From: Candidatus Iainarchaeum sp.
GTDB lineage: Archaea > Iainarchaeota > Iainarchaeia > Iainarchaeales > DTGL01
Reading direction: 5' to 3'
DNA length: 32,129 nt
Assembly: GCA_021163505.1 (NCBI GenBank)
Contig: JAGGVE010000001.1
Location: 1-32,129 of the forward strand
This document shows, piece by piece, positions 1,896 to 24,514 of the stretch; positions within the stretch are counted from its first letter, which is position 1, and every line of letters starts with the position of its first letter. The notes beneath the pieces were generated by a model. The model searched no databases. It was not told the DNA's origin and worked only from the letters and a program-made list of their open reading frames with translations. The translations under genes and the position numbers were made by a program.

Positions 1896-3122
1896 ATGTC
1901 AAAGAGATTCTTACTTTTGGCAACACTTTTCTTATTTTCCCTTTTTTTAATTGTTCCTGTTAGTGCTCAGCCAGAGCAACTAAAGGCGCTTATAACCGAT
2001 GCAGAAATACAGAGTGCTATAGAGCAGGCAAAAACAGGAGCAGATTTTACAAATAAAGATGCATTATATTACAGCAAATTTATCAATAATACATACTATG
2101 CTTCTGTTTGCCATGGCGGTTCCAGATCGTTGGGCTGCAAGGAGCGCGTGGTGAAATTAAACGGCAACTATTATGAAATAGCAAACCCTGTTGCTGTTTT
2201 TGGTATTGGGGGTGCACACTATCTCAACACAAGCACAGATGATTACCTTGTTGTTAAGCTTCTTGGCGAGCTCTGGTTTATAAAGCCACACTGGAATGAT
2301 TCCGAGCAATGCTATTTTGATGTCTGGAAGTGGACCTCAAGCGAGAATTTTTTTGTTGATGCCTCGTATAATCTAAGTGCTTGCGAAGGACAGGGTTCAG
2401 CAGTATTTCCTAAGAGCAAAGATTTTTACACAGTAAGCGCTTATGAAAACAGCTGTGGCATAGCTTTTGATATTAGCTGCAGAAGCGGCAGCTGGCCAAC
2501 GGGAACTGATGTTGCTATAAAAAATATAAAAATAAATTCCCAGTATTTTGAGGAGCTTAAGGCAAGGGCCCAAACCAGAGAAAGCAGGATAACGCCTGCT
2601 CGGCAGATACCAAATGAATGTGGGTTTAAAATAGCTTCAGTACGCTATAAAGGCCAAACATATGATGATCCGAACTCCCTGACTTATTATGCTGAAACCG
2701 CTGAACCAATGAGCGTTAGTTTTGTTATAGATAATTCTAAATGCAATATTCAGCAAATGGTTTTTGGCTTGTGGGAAAGTGCTGAACCTATTGGTTATCC
2801 GCCTATTGATATATATGTAGGTTCTGATATAATAAATTCTTTAAACGAAAATGGAAGCGCCAATATTGAAGTCAGCTTCAGTGATGCTCGTGACTGGGCA
2901 AAGAAATACATGGCTGCAAGGGTGTTTGCATTGCCCTCTGATTCCACCTCTGCGAGATGGATCTCAAGTCAGGTGGTTGAAATAACATTTTCTTCAGGCA
3001 CTGGTGCTGGAGGTCAGACACAGAAGCCTCCTGAGCAGGGATTAACCAATTGTTCGGCTTGCAGCAGCCTTTTGCAATGCTTGGCATGCATAGATATGTT
3101 AATTTTGGAATCAATCCCATAA
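1896..3122 (+). CDS. secreted protein with C-terminal Cys-rich tail (CSACSSLLQCLACIDMLILESIP)
   Basis: N-terminal signal peptide (KRFLLLATLFLFSLFLIVPVSAQ); 408 aa; terminal CxxCx5CLACIDMLILESIP shared with the 28359-30560 protein. Confidence 0.85.
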   Translation: MSKRFLLLATLFLFSLFLIVPVSAQPEQLKALITDAEIQSAIEQAKTGADFTNKDALYYSKFINNTYYASVCHGGSRSLGCKERVVKLNGNYYEIANPVAVFGIGGAHYLNTSTDDYLVVKLLGELWFIKPHWNDSEQCYFDVWKWTSSENFFVDASYNLSACEGQGSAVFPKSKDFYTVSAYENSCGIAFDISCRSGSWPTGTDVAIKNIKINSQYFEELKARAQTRESRITPARQIPNECGFKIASVRYKGQTYDDPNSLTYYAETAEPMSVSFVIDNSKCNIQQMVFGLWESAEPIGYPPIDIYVGSDIINSLNENGSANIEVSFSDARDWAKKYMAARVFALPSDSTSARWISSQVVEITFSSGTGAGGQTQKPPEQGLTNCSACSSLLQCLACIDMLILESIP

Positions 3123-6406: not shown

Positions 6407-6982
6407 CTATTCTTTGCACCTTTTTTCGCTTTCTGTACTCCATTTGAACCAGAGAAAATAAAATCCAACAATTACCACAAACAAAAAACTTTTGAAGAGT
6501 ATGTTGTGCAATATTTCCGCTTCATTAAGGTTCTGGCTTAGGATGAAAGAAATAGTTATATATATGCGCATGATATTGAAAACGAAAACTGTTAAGGTTG
6601 CAAACGCAACACCAATAATACGTTTCTTTATTTTTATGCCGCGCGAGGCAATTATTGCAGATACAAGTACACTAAGCTCGAGCAAGCCTGTGCAGAGCGA
6701 GCTGAAAACAATTTCACTGGGGCCTATCTGCAAGGCAGCAAGTTCCTTATTTTCAACTGTTGCAGTCTTTACTTCTCCCCCGAGCAAAGCTTTCATAATG
6801 CCAGCTATGTAAAATCCTGCATAGTAATCCAGATTCAAAAGAAGAAAAACGAGATTAAATAAAGCGAATGAAATGATAAAATAAATAAGAAAAATGGCGG
6901 AGAGCTTAGCCTCCCGCAAAATTCCTCTGTATTGCAACACTCTGAAAATCCCTAGGGTGTTATTTACTTTTCTTTTTTTCAT
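6407..6982 (-). CDS. exosortase/archaeosortase-family transmembrane transpeptidase-like protein
   Basis: 191-aa multi-TM protein with Cys in SLCTGLLE, Arg in FNIMRIY and His in ILHNILFK, in the order and spacing of the Cys-Arg-His/Arg catalytic residues of exosortases/archaeosortases. Confidence 0.8.
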   Translation of the reverse strand: MKKRKVNNTLGIFRVLQYRGILREAKLSAIFLIYFIISFALFNLVFLLLNLDYYAGFYIAGIMKALLGGEVKTATVENKELAALQIGPSEIVFSSLCTGLLELSVLVSAIIASRGIKIKKRIIGVAFATLTVFVFNIMRIYITISFILSQNLNEAEILHNILFKSFLFVVIVGFYFLWFKWSTESEKRCKE

Positions 6983-7004
6983 GAAAAATCATTGTCGCTA
7001 TACT

Positions 7005-7556
7005 TTAGCGCGCAGCTGTTCTTAATGCTATCAAGCAGCAGATGTCATCTATGCTGGTACAGCTACATCCTGAAACCCAAGACGGATTCAAACCTGCCTC
7101 TCCGCTGTAGTAGGTTCTGATATCGCCTTCTAGCTCTGTACCCACATCACACAGCACTGAAAGCCTCACATTTTTACTTGCCGTTCCGCTATACCGTATC
7201 TGATTTTCCTCGCCATTTTCAACACCGCCGCCCCATGCGTCTGTGGTGTCACTTCCATAATCTCCCAAACTCAGACATAGCTGGTTTTCTTGCAGTCCAA
7301 CCTCAGCAGATTTGACAATCGCTTTTGCGGTCATAGCGCTTCCTTTATCGAACGTAACTATGTCTGTTTTGAAATGCTGAGAAAGCTTAGTTGATGCATC
7401 CTTCAGCTTGTCGCTGGCAGCCTGCACCGGGTCGCCTGTTGAACTTATCCCTGGAATAACCCTGAGTATCGCAAGCAATATTATAAGAATAACGATGGCC
7501 ACAATAGCTGCAATCAAAAGCTGAAACGTTGAAAAGCCTTGCCCTTTATTATCCAT
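7005..7556 (-). CDS. type IV pilin-like protein (class III-like signal)
   Basis: MDNKGQGFSTFQLLIAAIVAIVILIILLAIL; start at ATG 7556 preceded by GGTGG RBS (ORF track begins at 7583). Confidence 0.75.
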   Translation of the reverse strand: MDNKGQGFSTFQLLIAAIVAIVILIILLAILRVIPGISSTGDPVQAASDKLKDASTKLSQHFKTDIVTFDKGSAMTAKAIVKSAEVGLQENQLCLSLGDYGSDTTDAWGGGVENGEENQIRYSGTASKNVRLSVLCDVGTELEGDIRTYYSGEAGLNPSWVSGCSCTSIDDICCLIALRTAAR

Positions 7557-7648
7557 CTTTCCACCTCGCAAAATATATTCCAATAAAAATAGTATTTTCC
7601 ATTATTTAATTCTTTCGCCGAAAGGTTGTCAAACTCGCTGACAGGAAC

Positions 7649-8110
7649 TCAGGATGGCGAGGGTCTTTTTCCTATTGAAATATAGCATACAATGCCGCAG
7701 GAATCAGAGCTCTGGTAAACGCACTGGAAGTAAACATCTGCTTTTGCATCATATTTTACGTTCATTCTTTTTTCATCTATTACTTCAAAGTTGGTTCTGT
7801 AGGATTGGAACTTTATGCAATCCACAGGCATATTGAATCTATTTGAGAACGGCTTTACAGAATAGACACCTCTTACAAAGCTCAAATCTTTTTTTAATAC
7901 AAGGCCGTTCTCCAATTTATCAGGGGTTGTGGGCGCATTTATTGCCGAGCGCAATCCTTCCATAAGCCTTTCTTCACTTTCCCTAAGATGGATGGTGTTG
8001 AAGTAATTTATCGTGCTTATTATTATCAAAAGAACTGCAAGCCCAAATATTGCTGCAACCAGTAACCTGAACGGCCAGAAGTATCCTTTTCCCGTAGGCA
8101 TATTTCTCAC
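7649..8110 (-). CDS. type IV pilin-like protein
   Basis: MPTGKGYFWPFRLLVAAIFGLAVLLIIISTINYF N-terminus; start GTG 8110 (overlaps upstream stop) or ATG 8101; translationally coupled to the TadC-like gene. Confidence 0.68.
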   Translation of the reverse strand: MRNMPTGKGYFWPFRLLVAAIFGLAVLLIIISTINYFNTIHLRESEERLMEGLRSAINAPTTPDKLENGLVLKKDLSFVRGVYSVKPFSNRFNMPVDCIKFQSYRTNFEVIDEKRMNVKYDAKADVYFQCVYQSSDSCGIVCYISIGKRPSPS

Positions 8111-10440
8111 ATATATGCTCCAATCAACGTATTAGAGAACATAACAGTGATCACATATATTATAAGAGCAACTGGAAGATATTTTGCAATGTTCACCTTC
8201 ACAAGCAAATTGTTGTCTTCCTCAAGCTTTGTCGCGAAGTAAATTATGATAAGCACAATCTCCATTACATATATTCCCACTATAAGTATAAACAATAGCG
8301 GTTCAGCTATCTGGGTAATCGCATCAACCTTTATCCAATCCAGAATATTTGCTCTTGTAAATGGTCCTGGCATACTCCGTGTTATGAGTGTTTGGCTTCG
8401 AACCTTTTCAAATACTCCTGACTCCACAACTTTTATTGCAGTCTGCACAACTATTTTGTACAGGGTGGTGGTAATCCCCAAGACCACAGGCGTGATGATA
8501 ACACCCATTGTCATCATCATTGTGGTGATGTCTTTCACCAAGGATTTAAGAAGCTTCGCAACCCTCTCTGAATTCTCAAGCTGCAAAGCGAAGGAAATGA
8601 GGCTGCGTGCAGCAATATTTACGCCGAGGGCTACAGCGTCCAAAGCAAGGCGCAGGCCTGTTTTTATTATATTGGAAGGCTGTCTTTCTGCTGCTCCGAA
8701 GCGATGATCAAAGAAAGCGGAGTAAAGAGGCATGCCAAGGATATTTATGTTGTCCAAGGCTTTTGAAAATACCTCTTTTGATATTGTATAGTTTGGCAGA
8801 AATTCAACAGCATGTTTTATCGCTTCTTCCATTGGTTTGTTTTCACCAAGACGGGATGCGATTATGTATATAGCATCTTTGAATTCGTATTCCATTCCAA
8901 TAACCTTTTGCTGCATTTTCCTCTTATAAATACTATTATAGTAAAGCCACACAAACATACATGCGGATATTGTGAGCAAAATGCCGAACCATAGGTTGTA
9001 AGGTGTTATATCATTGCCATAGCTCATGAAGAAAGTAAGCCTGGCAAGCCTCACCTCCTGTTCTGCCTTCTTCCGTAATTCTTCCCCCGTGTATCCGCTG
9101 GCACGAAGGCTTCTTACCACCATCTTATAATAGGTTCCATCCGGAATATCAAAGTACCTTGGTGGATAGCCGTTCATCTGCAATACCTCTTCCTCGGTTT
9201 TGTCAGCGGGAATAATCTGTACTATTTCTTCGCTTTCACTGATTGCAAGCAGCATAGACTTTGGTGGAAAGCCTTCAAGGTGGAAATAGTAGGAGCAGAC
9301 CAAGCCAAGTATTGCAATTATTGCAACCGTGGTTTTTATATCAACTGTGCCTGTCTTGGTTTTTATTTTACCCTTAGGCGGTAATCCGGGATAGTCATCA
9401 GGTATTTCGGGCGCCTCATATACTGGGGGCCTTGTTTTTATTATGCCTCTGGCAAAGTATAGGGCTGTGAGCGGCAGGGCGATATTGTATATTGCAATTA
9501 ATGCTATTGGATTTGACCAGGGCATGCCTGTGAATATGGAGCCTACAGGGAGTATCACAATAAGAATTACTGGAAGAAGAATCCCGATGTAAAAAAGCGC
9601 TATTGATGGCTGTATAAGCGCATGTGCATAATTTTCCATTTTTTCCCTTATGCTTGCAAGCAACTCGTCCATCGTCCTGTTCAAAAGCACTTCCCGTTTT
9701 GCCTCACTTTCCTCAAGAATGGATGCTCTTATTCGCATCAATGCTCTTTTAAATTCAGGAGCGTAGCGCCCCCATCTGTAAGCTATACTATCTAGCCCCT
9801 CTGTTATGGTAGCGTGTATGCCGAGTTCGAGTTCCCAGAGCATTTTTTTAAAGTCTTGGGCTATTTGCCCTCTGCCGTGTGAAGCAGCAAACTCTGTAGC
9901 TTGCTCGAGATTTGGCGTAAGCTTTAGGGACATTATGAAGTAACCTATTATCTCTGGGATATATGCTAAAGATTTTTTTATTTCCACATTTACTGCTGTT
10001 AAAGGATACTGCTGTACATAGCGTGTTATTAAAAGTGAAACAGTTACTAATGCAAATAGCGGCATATAAAGGCCAAATGGCACCGTACGCAGAATTTTTG
10101 CAGGCGGCCCATTTATCATTATGAGCCAAATTATAAAGCTCGCGAGGATTGTTATCAGAAAAATGAAGCGAACTGCCGCACTGAACTCCTTTGGCTTAAG
10201 GTCCCAGCCAAGCAAATCTATCGCATTACGATACTCATCTTTAAACGGCTCTTCACTCCCAAGGCTCGGTACCATTTGGTATATTCTTTTACAAAGCCTA
10301 ACATAGCCGGGGTTGGCTCTTTTCTTAAGTATCTCCTCTTTCTCTTGCCAGAAAACATCCCTGGGCACAACTATATTTTGATACATCTCTCCAATACTAA
10401 CCTCTTTTTTCTTAGCGCGCTTATTCTTTCTTCGTGGCAT
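8107..10440 (-). CDS. TadC/GspF/ArlJ-type pilus assembly membrane platform protein, two repeated halves
   Basis: 777 aa; cytosolic helical regions with glycine/glutamate patterns such as IPEIIGYFIMSLKLTPNLEQATEFAAS and KDAIYIIASRLGENKPMEEAIKHAVEFLP, each followed by paired TM helices; adjacent to the pilus ATPase. Confidence 0.82.
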   Translation of the reverse strand: MPRRKNKRAKKKEVSIGEMYQNIVVPRDVFWQEKEEILKKRANPGYVRLCKRIYQMVPSLGSEEPFKDEYRNAIDLLGWDLKPKEFSAAVRFIFLITILASFIIWLIMINGPPAKILRTVPFGLYMPLFALVTVSLLITRYVQQYPLTAVNVEIKKSLAYIPEIIGYFIMSLKLTPNLEQATEFAASHGRGQIAQDFKKMLWELELGIHATITEGLDSIAYRWGRYAPEFKRALMRIRASILEESEAKREVLLNRTMDELLASIREKMENYAHALIQPSIALFYIGILLPVILIVILPVGSIFTGMPWSNPIALIAIYNIALPLTALYFARGIIKTRPPVYEAPEIPDDYPGLPPKGKIKTKTGTVDIKTTVAIIAILGLVCSYYFHLEGFPPKSMLLAISESEEIVQIIPADKTEEEVLQMNGYPPRYFDIPDGTYYKMVVRSLRASGYTGEELRKKAEQEVRLARLTFFMSYGNDITPYNLWFGILLTISACMFVWLYYNSIYKRKMQQKVIGMEYEFKDAIYIIASRLGENKPMEEAIKHAVEFLPNYTISKEVFSKALDNINILGMPLYSAFFDHRFGAAERQPSNIIKTGLRLALDAVALGVNIAARSLISFALQLENSERVAKLLKSLVKDITTMMMTMGVIITPVVLGITTTLYKIVVQTAIKVVESGVFEKVRSQTLITRSMPGPFTRANILDWIKVDAITQIAEPLLFILIVGIYVMEIVLIIIYFATKLEEDNNLLVKVNIAKYLPVALIIYVITVMFSNTLIGAYM

Positions 10441-12730
10441 GTGACCCCTTCTTCTCGCTAATTAGATTCTTAAGCAATACTGAGTCTACCCAAGCTTTCC
10501 ACTCCTGAAGCCATTTTTCATAATCCACCTTTCCAAACTCTTTTATCTGCTTTTCTTTGAGTAGGAGAAGCTTTGAATGAGCTGCAGCGCTATTCTCAGC
10601 TTCAAGTAGCTCTGGTAGCGAATGCTTTTTCTTCAATTCTACAAGGTACTTTTTAGATTCTGCCCTGACTTTTATTTCCGACCATATTTCCCTTATTGAA
10701 AGTCCGGAAGTTTTCTGTATCTTAGAAAAAAGTTCCGAATCTTTGAGGCTGTCTTCAATAAAAATTAGATCGTCTTTCTTTGCTTCATAGAGCATCAGGT
10801 CCAGCAGGCCACCCTCTCTAAGCGGTTCCTCATTCCAATGCTTTCTGATTTCGGTAACCTGCACAAGCCTCCTTTGCCTCCTAAGCGAACCATAGAATCT
10901 TATAGGTCTTGCGGTGACAACAACATCTGTTGCCTTAAAAGAGGTTGTTGGCACTCCAAGGTCATTGACAACGCGATCCCATACCGAGTAAGCTGAATCT
11001 CCATGAATTGTTCCCATAACAACATTGCCTGCAGCACCAACACGCATTGCTTCATAAAGCGTTATCGCCTCTTTGGATCTAACCTCCCCAAGAACCAATG
11101 CGCTGTCACCTAATCGCAACGCTGTGCGCAGAGCTTCTTCCGGTTCCATCTCTGTTTCTGTTTTGCTCGCAGTGATTGGCGATTTTGTTTTTAATCTCTG
11201 AATGTTAAAGCCTATTTTCTTTATATATGGAACCGGAATTTCCAGAGTGTCTTCCTGAACAATAATCCTTATATTTTTGGGAATTTCCAATATGCAAGCA
11301 GTCAGAAAAGAGGTTTTACCAGAGCCCCTTGAACCAGTGACTAAAAGCGTTGCCTGATTATCAATCAAAAATGATATAAGCCCTGCTGCAAGTGGATTTA
11401 GAAATTTTACATCTATAAATTGTGGCAACGTCCAGGGAGTTAACTTGTGTAACCTAAATGCAAAAGCAACGCCATCTGGAGCAAGTGGCGGCCCGATGGT
11501 GGCAACTCTTGTTTCAAGGTCTGGTAAGTCATAGTCAAGCACAGGGTGTGCTTCGTCAAATGGTCTGCCACTCATTGCCCTCAATTTTGTTGCAAGAGTT
11601 AATGCTTCTCTTTCAGTATAGAGCACATTCGTTATACACTGTCCAAAATCAGAATGCACAATATATATTGGATGCTGTCCTATAGGTGAATCTATATAGA
11701 TATCTGTTATTCTCCTATCAGAAAGAAGAATTTCAAGTATGCCATAGCCCACAGTATATCTGGCAACTATTTCACTAAGCTCCTTTAACTCCTTTTTATT
11801 AAGTTTTATATTGTAGTGGTCTGCAACTTCCATTATGGTTGTTTCATATAAACGTTCAAAGTATGCTCTTGAGCTTGTTATGCTACTAAGTGCAGCCTTG
11901 CTTGGCGAATACTCGGAAACAATCTCCTTGGTCTTGCTTATAACAAAGTATTTCTCTGGGCTCAGTGAATACTCTGGCGGGTATATGAAGTAAAGGTTTT
12001 GGGCTCTATCCGGATGGCTGAATATCTGAACACCAGTGTTTTTTACAGTGTATTCGTCCAGAAGCTCTAAACCGCTCTCTTCCCCAAGAAGGAGCCTTGA
12101 ACCTATAAAAGATGGTTTTATCTGGGCCTCAAAGAGTGATTTGTAGATTTCCTTTGTATCCGGCATCTCGGTGAGCTCAGATATGAACTTTTTCACATTT
12201 TCTATCATTCTGCACTCTTCGAAGCTTTTTTTTATTTTCAGTAGCGTTTTTAGGTATATCTTGCTGCCTTTTCTGTACTGCTCATCTCCTTCCTTATACC
12301 TTTCGGTTTCCTTTTTAATTTCAGAAAGACAGAGCAGGTAGGCTTTGATTGGATCCCGAGCAATCAGGTCTTTTGTTATTGAAACTACTACCCTATGGCG
12401 CATGCCAATACGGCGTTCTTCCGCCTTGTTAGTAACATCGCCAAGGTTTGTGTAGCCCCATATATTCTCCGCCGCAAACTTCTGCATGATTTTTACAATC
12501 TCTTTGAACATTTCTGTTTGTTCTTCATTGTATATTTTGTCATATACCTCTGAAAGCACTATTATGTTTGGATTTGTTTTCTGCAGAACTGTCATCAGGT
12601 GAAGTCTGCACGCTTCATCATCTGCAAGCGAGGATTTGTATATACAGCTCTTACAGTCAAATATAAGATAAAAGTTGTTTGCCTCTCTTTTAACCACGTA
12701 CTTTCCAACCTTAAATCCACCAATTTTCAT
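10421..12730 (-). CDS. type II/IV secretion system ATPase (TadA/ArlI/GspE superfamily)
   Basis: TDIYIDSPIGQHPIYI, Walker A VTGSRGSGKTS, EDTLEIP (Asp box), ALVLGEVRSKEAITLYEAMRVGAAGNVVMGTIHG (Walker B and His box). Start placed at ATG 12730 with upstream GGTGTGG RBS. Confidence 0.95.
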   Translation of the reverse strand: MKIGGFKVGKYVVKREANNFYLIFDCKSCIYKSSLADDEACRLHLMTVLQKTNPNIIVLSEVYDKIYNEEQTEMFKEIVKIMQKFAAENIWGYTNLGDVTNKAEERRIGMRHRVVVSITKDLIARDPIKAYLLCLSEIKKETERYKEGDEQYRKGSKIYLKTLLKIKKSFEECRMIENVKKFISELTEMPDTKEIYKSLFEAQIKPSFIGSRLLLGEESGLELLDEYTVKNTGVQIFSHPDRAQNLYFIYPPEYSLSPEKYFVISKTKEIVSEYSPSKAALSSITSSRAYFERLYETTIMEVADHYNIKLNKKELKELSEIVARYTVGYGILEILLSDRRITDIYIDSPIGQHPIYIVHSDFGQCITNVLYTEREALTLATKLRAMSGRPFDEAHPVLDYDLPDLETRVATIGPPLAPDGVAFAFRLHKLTPWTLPQFIDVKFLNPLAAGLISFLIDNQATLLVTGSRGSGKTSFLTACILEIPKNIRIIVQEDTLEIPVPYIKKIGFNIQRLKTKSPITASKTETEMEPEEALRTALRLGDSALVLGEVRSKEAITLYEAMRVGAAGNVVMGTIHGDSAYSVWDRVVNDLGVPTTSFKATDVVVTARPIRFYGSLRRQRRLVQVTEIRKHWNEEPLREGGLLDLMLYEAKKDDLIFIEDSLKDSELFSKIQKTSGLSIREIWSEIKVRAESKKYLVELKKKHSLPELLEAENSAAAHSKLLLLKEKQIKEFGKVDYEKWLQEWKAWVDSVLLKNLISEKKGSHATKKE

Positions 12731-12738
12731 AACCACAC

Positions 12739-15700
12739 CTACCCTGTGCAACGCTCACAACTTTCAGGGCTTTCGCACCTATTCTTTTCCTCAAGCATCA
12801 AATCTTCTACAATGTCTTTAATTATTCTTTTCATTGCTTCGTTCATCGGAAAACTGCTGTGCTGATTATTGCTTACAATAACACCATTATCAGACACCGA
12901 ATACCTGTAGATGTTTTCTTCAGAGGTAAGCCTTCTTGCTGTTGCTTCAGCACTTTCCATGCCTATTTCAATATTTTCCACAAGTGCATACAAATTTACT
13001 TTTAGCTCTCCTAATGTGTTTGTCACATCATAGATTGAGTGCACATCGCTGTTTGAGGGTTCATCTGTGATCAGCAGTATTACTTTGTAGCTCTCATTTC
13101 CCCAGCCGGTTCTCCAGCCAATATCTTCTGTATTGGCGCTGTTTGTTGCAAAAAATAGAGCGTCAAGCCATGGTTCTTTTTCCTCTATGTATGCAAGCCC
13201 CTTTATAAGCTCCGCTAATCTAAGAATGCTTCGTGAATCCCCCTTCAAGCTTACATATCCAACACTTTTTGTCTCTAGGAATTCGTTCCGCGAGTACCTC
13301 ATCTGTTTTGCAAGGCCTTCTTTTAGCGATGAATCAGCCCCGCCACCGAATATTAATGCACCTACTCTTAAACATTCCCCTCTGTCAGCAAATACGCATC
13401 GCTTATTAAAATTGCTTGCAAATTCCTCAAATGAGATTGTAAACTCAGCCAGCTCCTGCCAGGTTGATTCTGTAGCGTCAATAACCAGGAATAAATCGAT
13501 AGGCCTGCTAAGCTCGTTTATCCGCTGCAAATACTCCCAATTTTCATTTGAAGTTTCGCAGTAGCATTCACTCGGGCAGCTGAGCTCTGATTGGTGCGGT
13601 GCAATAGGCCCATTTGCTACAGATACCTGAGTTTCGCCTGAGCTTTCAGAGCCTTGTGGTTCTGCTGGCGCAATTGGTCCATTCGCCACAGATACCTGAC
13701 TCTCTTCAGGTTCGCTTTCGCCTTCATAAGGCTCTACTGGGGGCAATGGTTCAGCACCAGAGCTTACGCCGCCACAAAGCCATACCCTTGGCAACTCACA
13801 CTTAGCACAATTTTCTCTGCTGGGCGTGCATGTACCATAGACTGCAAGCACGCCTTCTGGAGTTTCTTCTATTGCTGCTGAGGTTTGAATCAGCTCCTGC
13901 CATTTTGCTATGCATTCCTGCTTGGTTATTTGGGTATCACAGTCACAGCCAAGCTCGACATAGCACTGTTCCAAATTATCGTTGCAATACAGCCTGCAGC
14001 CCTCTGTATAAATCTCTTTCTGGGGTCTTCTTTCAACTCTCCTGCAAAGAATGCACTGTTCTTCGCTGCATGGTCCAAGCCTTAGTTCCTCTTCTATTGC
14101 AGAGGTGAGCGCACTTATGATTGCATCCTTTATTTCTGCTGGTGTTGAATAGGGTATTGCCACCCCCCCAGTACTGGAAGAGAGCCAGCTCATCTGCTGC
14201 TCAAGCTTTTGCACATCACTTTCTGAGAGATTGCCAAGGGCCTTGCTTATGTTCGTATTGTAGATACCAACGAACTTTACTCCCTTGCGATTTGCGGCAT
14301 CTTTGAGGGATGCTATTACATCGTCTATGGTTTCTGATATTTGGCCTGAGCTAACGAGTGGCCTGTAATTCTCTTCAGGATTGTCATAAGGGGTTTCATA
14401 GGGATTATTTGGAGCATCAGTTAGCACAATTAAATACCTTTTCGATTCTGCGCTCCATTGCTCAGAGCCCAGAGCAAGAAGCGAAATGCCCGCCCACGGG
14501 TCAGCCACATCTGCGCCACCTGCTATATCCACACTTGTTAGGCTCGATGTTACTTCACTTAGATTGCCTGTAAGGGGCACTGCTTGCGGAGATGCCGAAG
14601 GGAATGCATGCCCTTTTTCAGTGCCATAAACATACCTTATGCCAACCTTCATACAGTGCTTTATTCCAAGCTCACTGCACTTCTGATCAAGCGTGTTAAT
14701 AATATCAGCTATCGAATTTTTGAATTCATAGAACTCATCGGCCATTGAGCCAGATAGGTCCAGCACAAATTCCACATCCATAAATGAATAATCGCTTAAG
14801 GTTTTGTCATAATACTGCGCACAGCTGCAGCTACCACATTCGCTCTGCCATGGCAGTATGCAATAATGAGTACAAACCTGCACAGGCATTCCCTCTTCGC
14901 AGAGCTTCAGACCTCTTTGCTTTGCGCTGTTGATTATCTCTGTAGTTATTATCTCCAATATTTTTGATGGCAACTCGGAAGCATTTGCATAGGATAAATA
15001 CCTGCCGCCTGTTTGTGCAGCTATGGATTGCAGATCTTGCTCTGGACACTGAAACCCATAGTCCTGGTTGGAGAAGTTATAGCCGTAAACATCTCTCAGA
15101 TAATTGGCCAGTATGGTGTAGAAACCGCTGGGCATCATATCACAGCCCTTTGCCGCAAGCGAAAATATCTTCACATTCTTTTCTCTTGCAAGCTCAGCAA
15201 CTTCTGTCAATGTTTTTGTGCTGCCATTGTTATAAGCATCGGTTATTACAATTATAATCTTTTCAGCATCATCCCGCCAGTGGATTGCATCCGAACTTAA
15301 AGCAAAATAGCTAACATCAGCCCATGCCTCTTGCCCTCCAGCCGAAATAACATCGTTGAGCATATCCGCTATTTTTGTGAAATCAGATGTTAAGTCTTGG
15401 TATCCAAAATCATCTCCCATAGAGGCGAAAATCGCTGGCGGCTGCTCCGCAAACTGGCTTATGCAATGGGGCGGCTTTCTTGCATCGAACTCGTCTTTAG
15501 TAAGGTTTCGATTTTTAGTATATCCGTAGTGTATTAAAGCGCTCTGGGCATAGTTGCACAGTACATAATTAAACGAATCGTACTGAAACGCATTGCAGGT
15601 TGCTACATTCTGCTGTTTGTGCTGCCTTTGATAGTTCAGACAGCTTTGGAACAGTGGATTGTTTTCCTCAAGACATTTTTTTGAATAGCCCTCAAAAACA

Positions 15701-16923
15701 TAAGCACCAATGCGCAGGCATTCCGTGCCAAGTTTTTCAATGCATTCCGAGCGCACTGTTTCATAGAGATTCGTGATGCTTGTTATAGTTTCGTCAATGT
15801 CATCTGACATTGAGCCGCTGCCATCTATTACAAGAAAAATGTCAAAAGGCTTTTCAGTCTGTCCTATTAATGAAAGCACCTCTTCTTTTGTATAGCAGTT
15901 TTTTGTGCAAACATCCTTTCTTTCTCCCTCGCCAGATAGCTCCAATGTTTTGCTCGCATAGCTCACTTTTTCCAGGGTTAGTTCGTAATTATCGGGTATG
16001 TTGTATAGAAGCCTCCATTTCCTTTCGCACTCTTCAAGAGTTATGCAATCATCGCAGGGGAAAAAGTATTTGCATTCGTTTTCAGAGATCCATTCACTTC
16101 TTGGCTCTCCGGGGATGCATTCCTCCAAAACAACTTTTCCGAATGCATTTATTTCAAACTCTTTTTCAACAAAATTTGTTTCATCGGTATTTTCTCTTAC
16201 AAGCAAGTTGAGCTTGTATGTACCGTTTTCTGGTATTTCAATGCTGATCTGCTTGCCGACAGAAGCGTTGATATGCAAGCTGAAGGGTTCAAGCTTTTTT
16301 TCGCTCACCAGTTTGTATTCATATTTCTGAAGGTGTGGATTGAATTCCCTCCGGTAAAGCTTTGCAATAACATCAATAGCAGACATATCCTGCTTGCCCA
16401 CATTTTTTACCTGAAAGCTGAGTTTTACCTCGTTGCCCTCTGCCAGATTTACATCGCTTTTGTCAATGTCCACTTCCGGTAGGGCTACCTGCGCAGGCTC
16501 TTCTCCAATATATACCTTGCATATATATATCTCTTCGAATCTGCATCTCGCAGAAATGACCTCTTCAGAGTCCTCCCTGAATGAAAAGAAACGCCTGTTC
16601 GGAGAATTATCCCACATTATCCTCTGGTGGCAGTCTGCACCAAGAACTCCTTTTGGGCAGCAGTGCCTTGGATGATTACATACAAATGTTACTGTACGAG
16701 ACTGGCTGTCGAAAGGATCTGCATGCATCTCAGTTTCTGCTTTAAAAAAAGCCTTATCGGTGTAATACTGCCCAAGCTTTGTTTCTGCCTTCTCAAGCTG
16801 CTCCCTTATAACCTCGTCTGGCTTTCTTGGTACTTTAAAGAACCCCGAAAAGTAAATAAGGAATATTGCAATAATTATTATAGCTATTATTGCAGCTACA
16901 AGTGTCTTAAACGAACTATCCAT
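12739..16923 (-). CDS. giant (1394 aa) pilin-anchored, Cys-rich protein with three von Willebrand factor A domains
   Basis: Pilin-like N-terminus MDSSFKTLVAAIIAIIIIAIFLIYFSGFF; vWA starts FLVIDGSGSMSDD, EFVLDLSGSMADE, FLVIDATESTWQE; recurring IIVITDAYNN / LIVLTDAPNN / ILLITDEPSN strands; many CxxC pairs. Confidence 0.9.
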   Translation of the reverse strand: MDSSFKTLVAAIIAIIIIAIFLIYFSGFFKVPRKPDEVIREQLEKAETKLGQYYTDKAFFKAETEMHADPFDSQSRTVTFVCNHPRHCCPKGVLGADCHQRIMWDNSPNRRFFSFREDSEEVISARCRFEEIYICKVYIGEEPAQVALPEVDIDKSDVNLAEGNEVKLSFQVKNVGKQDMSAIDVIAKLYRREFNPHLQKYEYKLVSEKKLEPFSLHINASVGKQISIEIPENGTYKLNLLVRENTDETNFVEKEFEINAFGKVVLEECIPGEPRSEWISENECKYFFPCDDCITLEECERKWRLLYNIPDNYELTLEKVSYASKTLELSGEGERKDVCTKNCYTKEEVLSLIGQTEKPFDIFLVIDGSGSMSDDIDETITSITNLYETVRSECIEKLGTECLRIGAYVFEGYSKKCLEENNPLFQSCLNYQRQHKQQNVATCNAFQYDSFNYVLCNYAQSALIHYGYTKNRNLTKDEFDARKPPHCISQFAEQPPAIFASMGDDFGYQDLTSDFTKIADMLNDVISAGGQEAWADVSYFALSSDAIHWRDDAEKIIIVITDAYNNGSTKTLTEVAELAREKNVKIFSLAAKGCDMMPSGFYTILANYLRDVYGYNFSNQDYGFQCPEQDLQSIAAQTGGRYLSYANASELPSKILEIITTEIINSAKQRGLKLCEEGMPVQVCTHYCILPWQSECGSCSCAQYYDKTLSDYSFMDVEFVLDLSGSMADEFYEFKNSIADIINTLDQKCSELGIKHCMKVGIRYVYGTEKGHAFPSASPQAVPLTGNLSEVTSSLTSVDIAGGADVADPWAGISLLALGSEQWSAESKRYLIVLTDAPNNPYETPYDNPEENYRPLVSSGQISETIDDVIASLKDAANRKGVKFVGIYNTNISKALGNLSESDVQKLEQQMSWLSSSTGGVAIPYSTPAEIKDAIISALTSAIEEELRLGPCSEEQCILCRRVERRPQKEIYTEGCRLYCNDNLEQCYVELGCDCDTQITKQECIAKWQELIQTSAAIEETPEGVLAVYGTCTPSRENCAKCELPRVWLCGGVSSGAEPLPPVEPYEGESEPEESQVSVANGPIAPAEPQGSESSGETQVSVANGPIAPHQSELSCPSECYCETSNENWEYLQRINELSRPIDLFLVIDATESTWQELAEFTISFEEFASNFNKRCVFADRGECLRVGALIFGGGADSSLKEGLAKQMRYSRNEFLETKSVGYVSLKGDSRSILRLAELIKGLAYIEEKEPWLDALFFATNSANTEDIGWRTGWGNESYKVILLITDEPSNSDVHSIYDVTNTLGELKVNLYALVENIEIGMESAEATARRLTSEENIYRYSVSDNGVIVSNNQHSSFPMNEAMKRIIKDIVEDLMLEEKNRCESPESCERCTG
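13597..13698 (-). repeat. in-frame tandem repeat of QVSVANGPIAP in the linker before vWA3
   Basis: Copies at 13597-13629 and 13666-13698, 69-nt period; protein ...SQVSVANGPIAPAEPQGSESSGETQVSVANGPIAPHQS. Confidence 0.85.
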
Positions 16924-17087
16924 AATTTTCTCCTCACAATTTATTTACAATTTAGTATTTTCCTTCTTTTATGCCCTCTATATATTTTTTAATTTTCTAA
17001 TATTAGTAAGCTCTTGTTGTATTTAAAATTTTTTATTTGCAGCGTAAAGGTTGGGTGTTCCTTTATAAAGGTAAAACAAGCTGAAAT

Positions 17088-17102
17088 AACATTTAAATAT
17101 AA
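17088..17102 (+). promoter_or_regulatory. archaeal TATA-like promoter of the divergent pilin operon
   Basis: AACATTTAAATATAA, 20 nt upstream of ATG 17122, implying a leaderless or near-leaderless transcript. Confidence 0.5.
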
Positions 17103-17121
17103 AAAAGCCATATTGTAATGT

Positions 17122-17292
17122 ATGAGCGCACAGAATTTTTTATCCGATAGTCGTGCACAGAGCGAATGGTCTGCAGTATATATGCTCTTGATTCTTGCAA
17201 TAGTCGCAATTCTGCTCATATCTGTTGTCAAGCCAATGTATCAGAATTCACAAAAAATAGTTGCAAGGACAAAGAGTTCTTTGGGTGGCTAA
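17122..17292 (+). CDS. 56-aa short type IV pilin/archaellin-like protein (not in supplied ORF track)
   Basis: Manual translation MSAQNFLSDSRAQSEWSAVYMLLILAIVAILLISVVKPMYQNSQKIVARTKSSLGG; class III-like site (R-A-Q-S-E) before the hydrophobic stretch; stop 2 nt before the next ATG. Confidence 0.72.
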   Translation: MSAQNFLSDSRAQSEWSAVYMLLILAIVAILLISVVKPMYQNSQKIVARTKSSLGG

Positions 17293-17293
17293 G

Positions 17294-17866
17294 ATGACCT
17301 TTAAAGGTTCTAGAGCACAGTCTTCGGCTGTTTTCGAGGTTCTGATAGGCGTAATAATAATGGGTTTTGTGCTGTTTTTTGGCTATAGGGCGCTGGAGGC
17401 AATGGCGAGGGAAAAATGTGCAAACTCAATAGCAAGCGAGATGGCTGAGTTTGCTAGGGCAATAGAGCGTACTGTAGGGCAGAGATACACAAATGAGGTA
17501 AACTTCTGGCCTCCGCGTTGCTTTAAAAACGCTGAGATAAAACTTTCAACGATTCAAAGCAGAGCTGTTTGTTCTTCCATCTGTCAAGAGGGAAAAAGCG
17601 AATGCGTGGTGCTTGATTTTTTCAGCCCGGATTATGTGCACAGGGAGTGTGTGAACATTCCACTCAAAACATCATTCTCTACTACAATAGGCGCTTTGGG
17701 GTCAGGAGGCTGTGAGGATAAAAGCAGTTCTGGCTATACGCTTGTTGACCTTTATGATGAACCGGGAGGGATTCCAGCAGGACATTATTTGCTGGTATAT
17801 GCTACTCCTCCTGGAAATGCATTTCCAGTGATATGCGCATATGTGAAAAATAGGGTTGGAGTGTAA
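17294..17866 (+). CDS. type IV pilin-like protein
   Basis: MTFKGSRAQSSAVFEVLIGVIIMGFVLFFGYRALEAM; same RAQS pre-hydrophobic motif as the upstream 56-aa protein. ATG at 17294 fits better than the ORF-track start at 17261. Confidence 0.75.
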   Translation: MTFKGSRAQSSAVFEVLIGVIIMGFVLFFGYRALEAMAREKCANSIASEMAEFARAIERTVGQRYTNEVNFWPPRCFKNAEIKLSTIQSRAVCSSICQEGKSECVVLDFFSPDYVHRECVNIPLKTSFSTTIGALGSGGCEDKSSSGYTLVDLYDEPGGIPAGHYLLVYATPPGNAFPVICAYVKNRVGV

Positions 17867-17872
17867 CCAAAA

Positions 17873-18550
17873 ATGCTTTCTTTCATATTGAGCAAATTCA
17901 ACCTTCTGATTCTCGCTACCGGGCTTTTTGTTATTGTTTCTTATTTTGCGTTTGGTTTTAGAGGTACCGTTGAATCTGCTCTTGCTTTTCAGCAGGCATC
18001 TTCAATAACAGCAAACGCCTCAATGCTTTTGAGTGCGGGCACACTTTGCGGAGCAACGGATGTGCAGCTTCCAAAGACTCTTTCTCCCTATAATGTACTT
18101 GGGTTTTCCTATAAAGTGAAGTTGCGGGGTTTTAAGTATAAAGAAAAGAGTCTGTTAATTGCAGAGATTTTGCAGAGAAACAAATATTTAAATCTGGGAA
18201 ACCCGATCGTGCTTGCCTCTTCTCGAAGAGATATAAATGCAGATATAAAATTTTTTTCCTATGAAGAAGGAGAACTCTGCCCAAGCGATGAAACTGTGCT
18301 TGATCCTCGCGGAGCTCCTTACCCAATGGATGAATTTTTATTCGTAAAAGAGATTTATAAGGGGCACACTTATTTCTACGTCGTTCCGTGTTCAAGCTAT
18401 CACAGAAAACTCTGTGAAGCAAATTTATACAGGCTCGGGTGTTATCTTTATAAAAAAAGAGGCGATGTGGAAAGCAACTGTGTTCCTGTTGATGAGGATT
18501 CCTGCAAGACAGCTTCAAGTTTTCCGAGCTGTTGGGGTGCTATTCCATGA
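17873..18550 (+). CDS. membrane-anchored pilin-operon protein, possible atypical pseudopilin
   Basis: N-terminal FNLLILATGLFVIVSYFAFGF single hydrophobic segment, then soluble Cys-containing domain; tightly packed in the pilin operon. Confidence 0.6.
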   Translation: MLSFILSKFNLLILATGLFVIVSYFAFGFRGTVESALAFQQASSITANASMLLSAGTLCGATDVQLPKTLSPYNVLGFSYKVKLRGFKYKEKSLLIAEILQRNKYLNLGNPIVLASSRRDINADIKFFSYEEGELCPSDETVLDPRGAPYPMDEFLFVKEIYKGHTYFYVVPCSSYHRKLCEANLYRLGCYLYKKRGDVESNCVPVDEDSCKTASSFPSCWGAIP

Positions 18551-19053
18551 GCAAGCAAAAAGGTTTTGTTGGGCCGATAGGCGATGATCTGCCGAGTTTA
18601 GTTCCACTCATTTTTTCCCTGATAATTTTCTTCGCAAGTTTTACATCAGCTTTTGACGTCTTTATTAAAAGCAAAGAACAATTTGATTCCGCGGTGCTTA
18701 TAACCGATATTGCTGCCTCTATTGCGGGCGACCACTTTATTGTAAGTCCTGAGGAATTCTATAGGTCTTGTGAGAGGGTTAGTGTTCCCGGGCTATTCTA
18801 CAAAGCTGGCCTTGTTGAACTTGAAGAGGATTTCAGGTATTTGGATATTCGTAAATTTGTAAACGAAAATGAGGGCGCCTATGCAGTTGGCACAGATGTG
18901 CTGGCATGCCCACTCAATATAGACCCGGATGCAAAGTTAAGAGAACACAGCGATGTAACAGTTCTCTTTTTCCCCGTTATTTTTCAGGACCCTTCGGTAG
19001 TAAGTGGATTGGCATCAAGGCCGATGCTTTTGGTGGTGGTTGTATGGCGCTGA
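18547..19053 (+). CDS. membrane-anchored pilin-operon protein, possible pseudopilin
   Basis: MSKQKGFVGPIGDDLPSLVPLIFSLIIFFASFTSAF; ATGA overlap with the upstream gene. Confidence 0.6.
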   Translation: MSKQKGFVGPIGDDLPSLVPLIFSLIIFFASFTSAFDVFIKSKEQFDSAVLITDIAASIAGDHFIVSPEEFYRSCERVSVPGLFYKAGLVELEEDFRYLDIRKFVNENEGAYAVGTDVLACPLNIDPDAKLREHSDVTVLFFPVIFQDPSVVSGLASRPMLLVVVVWR

Positions 19054-19784
19054 CTTTTAATAAAAAAGGGCAGGCATCTATAGCAGACTCAATGTTTATT
19101 CTGATAATATGCGCCACTATTGCTGCCCTTCTTTTTAATGTTTCCATTAACCACGGGAAAAATGTTGAAAGGCAGCTAAATTACATGCACACTACAGAAT
19201 ATGCAACCTCTGCTTTACAAACGCTTCTGTACTCAAGCTTTTCCTATGATGAATCTGAAACAGTTAAAACATCAGAGGAGGTGGACTACTTACTGGTCCA
19301 GATAAAAACCGATTATGTTCACGATGGGGTATTGGGAGATAAAACAAAGAACGCTATAGCGCACACAATGGAGAAGGTGATGTCGCCTTTTGAGCACTCT
19401 TACGATTATCTTTTTTATATATGGGCAAATCCAAATCAGAGCATTCCTGGTGTTGGCCCAAGTTCGTTAGGTTTCGTGCTGTTTTATCTAAAGATAACCG
19501 ATGATTCTGGAGTAAAACGTTATTTCTGCGCTCCCAAACGTCCAAAGAGTAAAATACTTGACGAGGTTCTTCTTGGTGGCGTGGGTGGGCCCTCTGTTAG
19601 TGCTCCGGAGGTTATTGCATTGAAAAGGTGGATCCCCCCTGCGCATGGTGGTCCTGGGTACGCTACTGTGCACTCCTATGCAAGTATTGTAATGTGGCCA
19701 ATAACGAAGCTCCCCAAAGGGCCCGACGATGCGGATATCTTAGGCTCCACAAATCTTGATTGCACGGAATACAGCCTTAGTTAG
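19044..19784 (+). CDS. type IV pilin-like protein
   Basis: MALTFNKKGQASIADSMFILIICATIAALLFNVSINHG: class III-like KKGQAS motif plus hydrophobic stretch. True start probably ATG 19044 (ORF track 18906); 10-nt overlap with the upstream gene. Confidence 0.75.
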   Translation: MALTFNKKGQASIADSMFILIICATIAALLFNVSINHGKNVERQLNYMHTTEYATSALQTLLYSSFSYDESETVKTSEEVDYLLVQIKTDYVHDGVLGDKTKNAIAHTMEKVMSPFEHSYDYLFYIWANPNQSIPGVGPSSLGFVLFYLKITDDSGVKRYFCAPKRPKSKILDEVLLGGVGGPSVSAPEVIALKRWIPPAHGGPGYATVHSYASIVMWPITKLPKGPDDADILGSTNLDCTEYSLS

Positions 19785-21265: not shown

Positions 21266-21998
21266 TTTTATCCCTCTTTTTTTTCAAAATATATACTACC
21301 GAAACCAAAATTATAAATGCAATGAAAAAATATAATAGTTTTCCTTCAACGAGTTTTGGTTGTAATCTATCATTCTCTGCTCTTTTTTTCCCTGCGCAAT
21401 CAGGGTCTATTCCTTCCGCGCAATCCGGATCACATACAGAATCTTTTAGATGCAGGCAGTAGCCATCTTTCTTGTTGAGTTTGCAGTCGCTTTCACAGCT
21501 GAGGTAGTTTTCCGTCACATCGCAAACGCCGTCGTTGTTGCAAAGTTTGCTTAAATCATATTCTGCAAGTACTGCCCTGCCGTGCTGAAAGCGCAGGTAT
21601 CGCGCATTTTCTATGTAGGGCACCATTAAAATCATCATCCCTCTTTTTGCCCCAATTAAAGAATCATAATCCAGCGCAAGCAGGTTTTCGTCATCCTCAG
21701 TTATGTATAATTCATCAATGTTAGGTATTTCAGAGGGTTCCAGTTTTATATCAAGTTTCCTTACTGTTGTTTGATATAGCGTTTTGCCATCTGCGCTTTT
21801 TAATTTAATCAGATACTCACCCTCATACCATGCTTCAGGAGCCTTCCCCAGCACGACCCGAACATCACTGATTTCATATTCGCCGTTTTCCCAGCTAACT
21901 TTGAACACTATTGCTTTAGCTGCTGTCTGAGCATAGCACAGCTGTAATAAAAGGAACACTATGAATGTTGTTATAGAAAAGGTTTTCATTATTTTCAT
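21258..21998 (-). CDS. secreted, C-terminally TM-anchored protein with juxtamembrane Cys-rich module
   Basis: Signal ITTFIVFLLLQLCYAQ; LCNNDGVCDVTENYLSCESDCKLNKKDGYCLHLKDSVCDPDCAEGIDPDC; TM plus KKKRDKNG tail. ATG 21998 follows an RBS (GGAGGCGTGGTG). Confidence 0.75.
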   Translation of the reverse strand: MKIMKTFSITTFIVFLLLQLCYAQTAAKAIVFKVSWENGEYEISDVRVVLGKAPEAWYEGEYLIKLKSADGKTLYQTTVRKLDIKLEPSEIPNIDELYITEDDENLLALDYDSLIGAKRGMMILMVPYIENARYLRFQHGRAVLAEYDLSKLCNNDGVCDVTENYLSCESDCKLNKKDGYCLHLKDSVCDPDCAEGIDPDCAGKKRAENDRLQPKLVEGKLLYFFIAFIILVSVVYILKKKRDKNG

Positions 21999-24514
21999 CC
22001 GCACCACGCCTCCCGCACAACCTCTCTTTCAAAACAGTCGTAAAGCCTTTTGGTTTGAGAGTTTACTCTTAGGGATGGAATATAGGATCCTATTTTTTCT
22101 AGGGTTGCTGGTGTTGGCCCCATTATATCCCTCGCTTGTCCACCTCCGTATGAGATTCTACGCCCCAAACAGTGGGTTTTGGTCATATATATTCTAAGAG
22201 CTCCGATTGCTTGAGGGTTCCGAGCCATTGTTGTTTGTATTTTTAATGCAAGCTCTTTTTTCGAGACTATTGCGCCTTGAACGCTAACACCAGAACCGAA
22301 GGATATGGTTATTGGAGCAAACTCTGTTATGCCTAATAAATCTGCAAAACTTCTTTCTATAACCACATACTCCGGGCAATGAGTGCTCGGTATTTCCTCT
22401 GGACAGGTTTCGTATGGTACGCTTGGGTCAAATGCGGTGTATACGAACCCTTCAACTGGCTGCACTGTAATGCCGAAAAGTCCACGCAGCTCTCTTAGTT
22501 CAACCACTGTTGCCATGGGAAGCCAGTTGTTTCTACGGCTTAACGAATATGCTCCTGGGAATTTGTTTGTACATCCGATTCTGCCTGAGCTCATAAATCT
22601 ATTTATTGCCCGCTGTTTTATGTATTCAGCTATGGAATATTGTTCGCAAAAACCGAGGCAGTGGCCCAGTTCATGGGGCATTGTTTGATATACGGGATCA
22701 ACACTCCTATCAGCAAGTGTTATCACAACTTTTGTTTGAATATTTCCTGTTACTAAGGGCGATACATGGAACCCGCTTGCATTTACTAATTTGCACTGTC
22801 CGCCTTCCTCCATAATAAATCCTGCATTGTTGCCCCTGTTCGTAAGCCCGTATCTTTGCAAAAGTTGTGTATTTGTTAGCGGACTTCTGTCGCTTATGCC
22901 TACAAATATAATGCTCTCCCTATTTAATGTAAATCCTGTTGCGCTTTCAACGCAGTTTCTAATATCATTTGCTAGTTCACGTGTATTTATGCATTTTTGA
23001 AGAGTGATATCGCACTCCGGGTGCTTTTCAGAAATATTTCTCGGAAGAATAAGTGCATAATAATTCAGATCATTTCCACAACCAGAGGCTTCTTTTAAAG
23101 ATTCAATATTAGCATTTACCTCCTCTTTAAATTTCTCATCGCTGCCCCGCCAGTCAATCGGCATAAATATAAAAAGCACTTTAACATCTTTGCCTGGTTC
23201 TGGAATGGCTGATTGTGTGCTTTGCTGCTCCGCGGGACAGCCATGGTTTGCGGGATCTCCCCTTTGATAAGGGCACCTATCTGCAGAATCTGGGACCCCA
23301 TCATTGTCGGAGTCCGTTTCGGCAGCTTGGTCAGTGCCTGTGCTATACTCTCTCACAACACTGACCTCCCCAATCTGAGAGACTTCCCTTTTGCCGTCCG
23401 AAACAGAGGCAAAGCACCTGATTTTATCAATGTTTTCATTTGCCAAGCTGGAGGGGACACTTAATGTGGTACAATAATTTTTAGCATCCGTACTTCTTAT
23501 ATCTTGGCTATAATATTGAAAGTTTGTGCTTCCCAGAAGTCTAACGTACCATGTGATTTTATATGTGAATGAGTCGCTATCAGGGTCCTGAATGCTGACA
23601 CAACAGCTAATATTTCTAGTTTCCGTTGTTGGTTGCTCAGGCCTAAACATAAGCGAAATTATTTTAGGCTCTGCGTTTGAACTGCCTGTCGTTACAAACT
23701 TTGGCCACCAGTATATATCGTAGTGATCTCCAGCATCGTACATTGTTGCATAACCAGAGTTTAGCGCTCTTTTTATCCTTTCCACCCAATTCGGGTCTTC
23801 TCCGCCAGGAAACTGACCGAGCTGTATTTCTGCAGAACTTTGGCCACGAGAAAGCTCGAAGCTAGCTATTTGTGGTGTTCTGGGAAATACTGCTAACACT
23901 GTTACCCTTATATTTTTGTTGGTGTTGCATATTCTGAAGCGTGCTCTGCCATATGGGACATAAATTTTTGTATACACAAACTTTGGCTTTGGGTTTCCGC
24001 TAAGTGCGTTGCCTTGCATTGCGGAAGAAATTATTGAAATGTTTGCAGTTGCATCTACGCTCTGAATACCGCAAATCTGCTGCTGAGCGTTGATTCCATC
24101 AATAAAATAAATTCCCCACCTTTCAAATTCCCATTTCGCAAAACTGTTTTCGTGCAGATTTTCGAGCCCCTCTAAATAATAGGTTATATTTGCATTTTCC
24201 AGACTTGTGTCTAAACTTTCTATAAGTATAGCCACATGCACGCTTTTGTAAAGAGTCCAAAATGAACCGTCCTTTTGTATCTCTGCAAGTTTGCCAGCCC
24301 TTAGCTCATTATTTGTTATATCATTTATTATTACTGGCTGTGTGCTTCTCAATCTTGATTCCAAAATGGAAAATATTTGTGGTGCATTTGTTACTGGTCG
24401 CAGAGCAGAGCCAGTGCCTGCACTGACACAGATAAAAAACAGGATCAGAAGAATAAACGCTAACACTTTCTTCAGGTAACTTTCAAAGAGAAACGCCTGC
24501 ATTGTTTTTCCCAT
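21995..24514 (-). CDS. secreted TSP3-like Ca-binding and zinc-metalloprotease-like protein (839 aa)
   Basis: Signal-like LKKVLAFILLILFFICVSAG; DSDNDGVPDSADRCP; zinc motif PHELGHCLGFCEQY; Met-turn-like GGGQARDIMGPTP. Confidence 0.75.
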   Translation of the reverse strand: MGKTMQAFLFESYLKKVLAFILLILFFICVSAGTGSALRPVTNAPQIFSILESRLRSTQPVIINDITNNELRAGKLAEIQKDGSFWTLYKSVHVAILIESLDTSLENANITYYLEGLENLHENSFAKWEFERWGIYFIDGINAQQQICGIQSVDATANISIISSAMQGNALSGNPKPKFVYTKIYVPYGRARFRICNTNKNIRVTVLAVFPRTPQIASFELSRGQSSAEIQLGQFPGGEDPNWVERIKRALNSGYATMYDAGDHYDIYWWPKFVTTGSSNAEPKIISLMFRPEQPTTETRNISCCVSIQDPDSDSFTYKITWYVRLLGSTNFQYYSQDIRSTDAKNYCTTLSVPSSLANENIDKIRCFASVSDGKREVSQIGEVSVVREYSTGTDQAAETDSDNDGVPDSADRCPYQRGDPANHGCPAEQQSTQSAIPEPGKDVKVLFIFMPIDWRGSDEKFKEEVNANIESLKEASGCGNDLNYYALILPRNISEKHPECDITLQKCINTRELANDIRNCVESATGFTLNRESIIFVGISDRSPLTNTQLLQRYGLTNRGNNAGFIMEEGGQCKLVNASGFHVSPLVTGNIQTKVVITLADRSVDPVYQTMPHELGHCLGFCEQYSIAEYIKQRAINRFMSSGRIGCTNKFPGAYSLSRRNNWLPMATVVELRELRGLFGITVQPVEGFVYTAFDPSVPYETCPEEIPSTHCPEYVVIERSFADLLGITEFAPITISFGSGVSVQGAIVSKKELALKIQTTMARNPQAIGALRIYMTKTHCLGRRISYGGGQARDIMGPTPATLEKIGSYIPSLRVNSQTKRLYDCFEREVVREAWCG

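Follow-up and report, generated by a model that had tools for sequence, protein, structure and literature searches.

Archaeal type IV pili have been surveyed in a census (Makarova, Koonin and Albers 2016; PMC4858521), and islands of DPANN type IV pili genes whose pilins are unrecognisable "dark matter" have already been noticed (Makarova 2019; PMC6393860, Fig. 2A). Among sorting enzymes, haloarchaeal ArtA, modelled as acting through an active-site Cys, anchors the S-layer glycoprotein (PMC7157517), and an enzyme with a single target is known as a dedicated system (PMC3237569). In Streptococcus sanguinis PilB, a predicted tip adhesin, a vWA module sits on a type IV pilin module (PMC8179133). 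Here we describe a locus on a 32,129-bp stretch of Candidatus Iainarchaeum sp. (hereafter the window), which is the entire contig C49 of a 959-kb genome (G000; 52 contigs, 93.6% complete). The locus combines genes for a type IV filament with artX, an archaeosortase gene, and we consider it probable that it encodes a type IV filament machine to which a dedicated archaeosortase is tied; we infer a contact or attachment filament that is linked with the C-terminal sorting of a single large surface protein, the probable client of artX.

The gene set is phylum-wide and not local to the source genome. We compared 53 relatives of the same order and 87 species genomes of the phylum (one class), twenty neighbourhoods being compared gene by gene. 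Sequence searches recover an orthologue of the ATPase g10 in 42 of the 53 order relatives, full-length with 54-87% identity in about 30 and as fragments or intein-split copies in the others, as well as in 69 of the 87 phylum genomes, including 24 of the 25 near-complete ones. The TadC-like platform gene g9 and the genes g8, g7, g12s and g13-g16 recur in a kept order, either in a single block or split over two, in almost all loci that are not cut by a contig end. The arrangement exceeds chance, because syntenic orthologues of each locus gene are present in about 19-25 independent loci and also in other orders; the same gene set occurs in two additional families outside the order. In one relative (G086), a single contig carries within about 30 kb the series giant-giant-artX-ATPase-TadC-g8-g7-g12s-g13-g14-g15-g16-client, where the client lies about 2 kb past g16 and the giants are large surface proteins described below. 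An earlier note on this DNA, made from its letters alone, had read the locus as a type IV pilus-like system whose distinctness would hang on synteny in relatives and on conserved co-occurrence of the vWA-pilin, ATPase, TadC and exosortase-like genes. Synteny is observed, and so is co-occurrence for all of these but the vWA gene: about 20 loci of the order, together with loci of other orders, keep the motor and pilin set, and by coordinate comparison 32 of 40 genomes carry ATPase and artX on a shared contig, at a median distance of 2.6 kb and within 10 kb in 30.

The locus contains a T2SSE ATPase, a TadC-like platform, seven small pilin-like proteins and an archaeosortase (Table 1), which upholds its initial recognition as a type IV filament locus. 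The ATPase is of the GspE/PilT assembly type, scoring far above the PF00437 cut-off of 24.9 and carrying a Walker A motif GSRGSGKT; its PDB relatives are AfGspE (2oap, the best solved match), CpaF and FlaI. The platform had been described as a double TadC, and only the first half of that description stands: a T2SSF signal at residues ~175-300 appears in the same place in three orthologues (19.5-22.1 bits, below the Pfam cut-off), whereas the second half matches neither T2SSF in the family scan nor the first half. An internal duplication of TadC finds no support, as hhalign between the halves yielded nothing. Some ATPase orthologues are interrupted: in G016 (L101:2313-6173), an intein sits in frame near query residue 490-496 and contains a LAGLIDADG domain (Pfam Intein_splicing, 1e-22), and inteins are likely also in G027, G028, G029, G031, G041 and G063, with sites deduced from split matches (near residue 551 in G041). 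The source genome also holds a second, distinct type IV filament locus at G000:C10:3169-6419 (L121), with an ATPase and a TadC-like platform split into two pieces. The L121 ATPase carries an N-terminal ferredoxin-like cysteine region, and in G086 an ATPase similar to it is encoded close to the main locus (L166:13685-15499).

Some of the pilin-like proteins are linked to each other by profile comparison or by their N-termini. By hhalign, g7 matches g8 at 99.5% and the N-terminus of g13 at 96.1%, and a class III signal with an N-terminal helix is present by sequence in g7, g12s, g13 and g16. For g14, no family match is found, and profile comparison with the other pilins shows no homology. An AlphaFold2 (AF2) model of g13 has a long N-terminal helix (residues 9-64) followed by strands, with a predicted local distance difference test score (pLDDT) of 59, and a Foldseek search with this weak model returns no match. 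The window has no prepilin peptidase, as first noted, and three A24 peptidases (PF01478, over cut-off) are encoded elsewhere in the genome, on contigs C34, C30 and C5. The reported lack of archaellum genes likewise holds, with no archaellum accessory gene recognised at the locus: among the scanned window proteins, none matched the ArlH, ArlF, ArlG or ArlC/D/E families, nor TadZ, the RcpA secretin or RcpC.

Cys, Arg and His are the catalytic residues of the archaeosortase family, and in artX these three residues are invariant in all orthologues aligned. The protein, first noted as exosortase-like, also exceeds the TIGR04178 cut-off of 23 and, judged by its sequence, is a true archaeosortase. 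None of the named subtypes (ArtA-E, pacearchaeosortase, thaum- and heimdallarchaeosortase) is reached, those that matched all scoring far below cut-off (at best 30.5 of the 125 bits needed for ArtD, and 18.9 of 80 for pacearchaeosortase). Linkage to the filament genes is particular to this enzyme, given that a second archaeosortase paralogue, used as a negative control, comes within 30 kb of the ATPase, artX or client in none of 23 genomes.

Among neighbourhood proteins scanned for a C-terminal helix plus basic tail, we found a secreted, single-copy protein of about 1,500 amino acids (aa) whose C-terminus consists of the motif [F/L][N/D]LPSLPE, a membrane helix and a basic tail, e.g., GPFNLPSLPEQPLLLIIYIGLLVLSFVSVRIYFIKKRC. 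It is encoded in 48 of the 53 order genomes and in 20 of the 20 near-complete ones, and in the source genome it lies outside the window (G000:C10:9337-13872), adjoining an array of four giants. Motif, helix and tail are kept in 24 aligned copies. The protein carries many invariant Cys and Gly residues and matches nothing in Pfam, NCBIfam, PHROGs or PDB. A profile built on its 52 C-terminal residues picks out a single strong place in each of 43 genomes (E <= 2e-5), separated from noise by a gap, and no other protein in these genomes rises above noise; as 24 of the 43 copies went into building the profile, the informative part is the absence of other signal-bearing proteins. Since the profile finds one strong protein per genome, the pair fits the dedicated system of PMC3237569, and this strongly suggests that artX has the ~1,500-aa protein as its dedicated substrate. 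The second archaeosortase is disfavoured as the client's enzyme: it is never linked, and its listed matches cover 11 of the 20 near-complete genomes versus 20 of 20 for the client. The window proteins g4, g18 and g25, which have a C-terminal helix and a Lys tail, were rejected as clients in the absence of the motif.

The giants, roughly 2,200-3,400 aa long, share a conserved N-terminus of two "DFL..KGIP"-like repeats followed by one helix, adjoin artX in most relatives and are found in 49 of the 53 genomes, often several in tandem. The distance between artX and the nearest-scoring giant is at most 15 kb in 34 of 43 cases. CarboxypepD_reg, SpaA and Big_1 immunoglobulin (Ig)-like domains occur in 13 of 14 giants. 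Giants carry a single N-terminal helix but lack a C-terminal helix with a basic tail, and hence are not canonical archaeosortase clients. In relatives, client, pilus, artX and tandem giants share one island; in the source genome, client and giants are on contig C10. Two giants of the 14 contain a Glucosaminidase domain and one an Amidase_2 domain (e.g., alignment A4), neither of which is in the source-genome copies; as peptidoglycan is not expected in these archaea, the domains may hint at an interaction with bacteria. The island also features, among loci L070-L072, L078, L082-L084 and L088, a recurrent ~177-aa four-helix membrane protein beside the client, with no family match, and a recurrent protein of ~255 aa, with a zinc ribbon at its C-terminus, beside the pilin operon.

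Taken together, homology and conserved synteny identify the ATPase g10 and the TadC-like platform g9 as the motor and g12s, g7, g8 and g13-g16 as its conserved pilin-like set. Prepilins would be matured by the A24 peptidases encoded elsewhere, the 56-aa g12s serving as the putative major subunit and g7, g8 and g13-g16 as minor or tip subunits. ArtX probably cleaves the client at its C-terminus (LPSLPE, helix, basic tail) and attaches it to a membrane lipid, as in the ArtA model. Once anchored, the client might combine with the N-anchored, Ig-repeat giants in a surface coat or receptor layer acting with the filament in attachment to other cells or surfaces. In a bolder form of this proposal, the processed client is an integral filament part, a lipid-anchored extracellular collar or receptor, which would be a first for a type IV filament machine, and the giants, some with peptidoglycan-hydrolase-type domains in relatives, arm the filament for cell contact, making a phylum-wide contact apparatus; we regard this form as possible at best.

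Several observations weigh against a machine of this kind. The second half of the platform is unrecognised, g14 and g15 are named pilins by position and a single N-terminal helix only, and no predicted fold (models of the vWA protein N-terminus and g13; Foldseek) supports the pilin assignments. Cleavage of the client by artX is deduced solely from co-occurrence and linkage, the client shares a contig with the ATPase in only 16 of the 41 genomes having both (in fragmented metagenome-assembled genomes), and in G009, whose assembly is a single contig, large distances separate ATPase, archaeosortase, client and giants from one another. That the G009 genes are dispersed yet kept would suit a surface-biogenesis island in which artX and its client make up an S-layer-like envelope system, comparable to the ArtA-anchored S-layer glycoprotein, and the pilus is an independent neighbour located there through shared regulation. 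The client, large, secreted, single-copy and near-universal, is what one expects of an envelope protein, and giants and further secreted proteins crowd the same island. However, artX directly adjoins the motor or sits within the pilin operon in many families and across several orders, and the second archaeosortase is never near the island genes; we consider this explanation rather unlikely. A secretion pseudopilus, whose motor would drive a short periplasm-like piston to export or release client or giants as in type II secretion, is improbable. The gene content, with a single ATPase and platform, several minor pilins and a core pilin of very small size, does resemble that of a pseudopilus, and the closest solved ATPase relative is the archaeal GspE 2oap. 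Yet such archaea lack an outer membrane or secretin that would have to be crossed, and both client and giants bring Sec-type signals or N-terminal anchors of their own and remain membrane-tethered. Small-genome archaea often scavenge nucleotides, which a competence-like DNA-uptake pilus might feed. Type IV pili are reportedly tied to DNA uptake in archaea and bacteria (transposon screen in Methanococcus maripaludis; PMC10133366), but no nuclease, ComEC-like channel or DNA-binding gene is recognised in the locus or the conserved neighbours examined, leaving uptake very unlikely as well.

A vWA "mega-pilin" had been counted among the parts of the locus by the earlier note. Its pilin-like N-terminus stands, as residues 1-126 match the g7 profile at 96.7% over 118 columns and that of g8 at 82.8% (hhalign); its role as a defining part does not, and we rule the protein out as the system core, since it is present in only 3 of the 53 genomes (among relatives, full-length in G002, shortened in G006 and none other). 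Three vWA domains have their motifs at residues 365, 720 and 1147, reading DxSxS in the first two and DATES (DxTxS-like) in the third. The order of a pilin module followed by vWA domains with a metal ion-dependent adhesion site is that of a modular pilin, and the protein fits, from its domain make-up, a lineage-specific addition resembling S. sanguinis PilB. In the source genus it may act as an extra tip adhesin, with three vWA domains grafted onto a g7/g8-type pilin module. Residues 1-305 also resemble a separate ~310-390 aa protein encoded elsewhere in many relatives, and structure prediction of the N-terminus reaches a pLDDT of 35.

The window confirms the divergent layout across about 200 bp first described: every open reading frame (ORF) is present on the strand given, the two operons diverge across 198 bp, the minus-strand operon is transcribed in the order vWA protein, ATPase, TadC-like platform, g8, g7, archaeosortase, and the plus-strand run consists of five packed ORFs. 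Most genes within an operon overlap or are at most ~25 bp apart, the widest gap (~90 bp) lying between g7 and g8.

Table 1. Coordinates of the filament and archaeosortase genes in the window.
Feature	Position	Strand	Basis
Archaeosortase (artX), 191 aa, Cys97/Arg139/His159 catalytic	6407-6982	-	TIGR04178 40.3 bits; C/R/H invariant in 26/26 orthologues
Pilin-like g7, 183 aa, N-terminus KGQGFSTFQLLIAAIVAIVIL	7005-7556	-	Same place in relatives; homology to g8, g13 N-terminus and vWA N-terminus
Pilin-like g8, 150 aa	7649-8101	-	Same place in relatives; homologous to g7
TadC/T2SSF-like membrane platform g9, 777 aa	8107-10440	-	Sub-cut-off T2SSF, 20.6 bits, residues 176-298; always adjoins ATPase
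Filament assembly ATPase g10, 769 aa	10421-12730	-	PF00437 72.9 bits; orthologue in 69/87 phylum genomes
Three-vWA protein with a pilin module, 1394 aa, lineage-specific	12739-16923	-	PF00092 58.5 bits; N-terminus related to g7/g8
56-aa pilin g12s (MSAQNFLSDSRAQSEWSAVYMLLILAIVAILLISVVKPMYQNSQKIVARTKSSLGG), RAQ-SEW prepilin-like site, candidate major subunit	17122-17292	+	21 loci have orthologues, in each case upstream of g13
Minor pilin-like g13	17294-17866	+	Same place in relatives; low-confidence AF2 model
Single-transmembrane g14, putative minor pilin	17873-18550	+	Position kept in 19 loci
Single-transmembrane g15, putative minor pilin	18547-19053	+	Position kept in 19 loci; no family match
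Pilin-like g16, N-terminus NKKGQASIADSMFILII	19044-19784	+	Position kept in 19 loci

Elsewhere in the window, a large secreted protein (21995-24514) combines a metallopeptidase-like HELGH motif with a weak match to thrombospondin type 3, and a two-gene unit (24682-25300), judged by reading, resembles a RelE/ParE-type toxin with a small partner. The proteins g3 (3050-3122) and g24 (30480-30560) share an unusual C-terminal motif, CSACSSLLQCLACIDMLILESIP and CNPCLSPIGCLGCIDILVLQSIPSG, which may be a C-terminal anchor or disulfide tail and has no further copy among the loci fetched from relatives.

Collectively, these results give a genome-only lineage a phylum-wide parts list of motor, platform, seven pilin-like proteins, archaeosortase, client and giant family, and propose a new enzyme-signal pair, artX and its C-terminal signal, that can be tested in the laboratory. 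They suggest that type IV filaments and C-terminal protein sorting can be parts of a single surface system, and bear on how small-genome archaea touch other cells. In the literature searched, we found the pairing of a pilus with its own archaeosortase and a probable single client described for no type IV pilus. The word "sortase" is absent from the main texts of PMC4858521 and PMC6393860, and no paper joining an archaeosortase with DPANN pili was found, a weak negative given that most subscription papers lie outside the search and some papers were represented by their abstracts. With the systems of those two papers the locus shares an ATPase, TadC and multiple divergent pilins at one place, vWA proteins being linked to some; there, however, the vWA proteins are ArnB-type regulators and TadG, and no dedicated C-terminal sorting client is present, whereas the ATPase family and pilin set described here are phylum-wide. 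A very short pilin (~55 aa) and a CpaF-like ATPase recall the Tad/Flp pilus, from which the locus differs in its archaeal context, in its archaeosortase and in having no recognised TadZ, secretin or RcpC. The S. sanguinis PilB protein likewise joins a vWA module to a type IV pilin module (PMC8179133), but the window's protein has three vWA domains with long linkers (1,394 aa) on an archaeal g7/g8-type module and is confined to one archaeal family among those searched. Finally, the Haloferax volcanii ArtA/PGF-CTERM system (PMC7157517) has in common with artX an integral-membrane enzyme, an active-site Cys and a tripartite client C-terminus, while the present system is distinguished by [F/L][N/D]LPSLPE in place of PGF, by one client per genome instead of many and by its location in a pilus locus.

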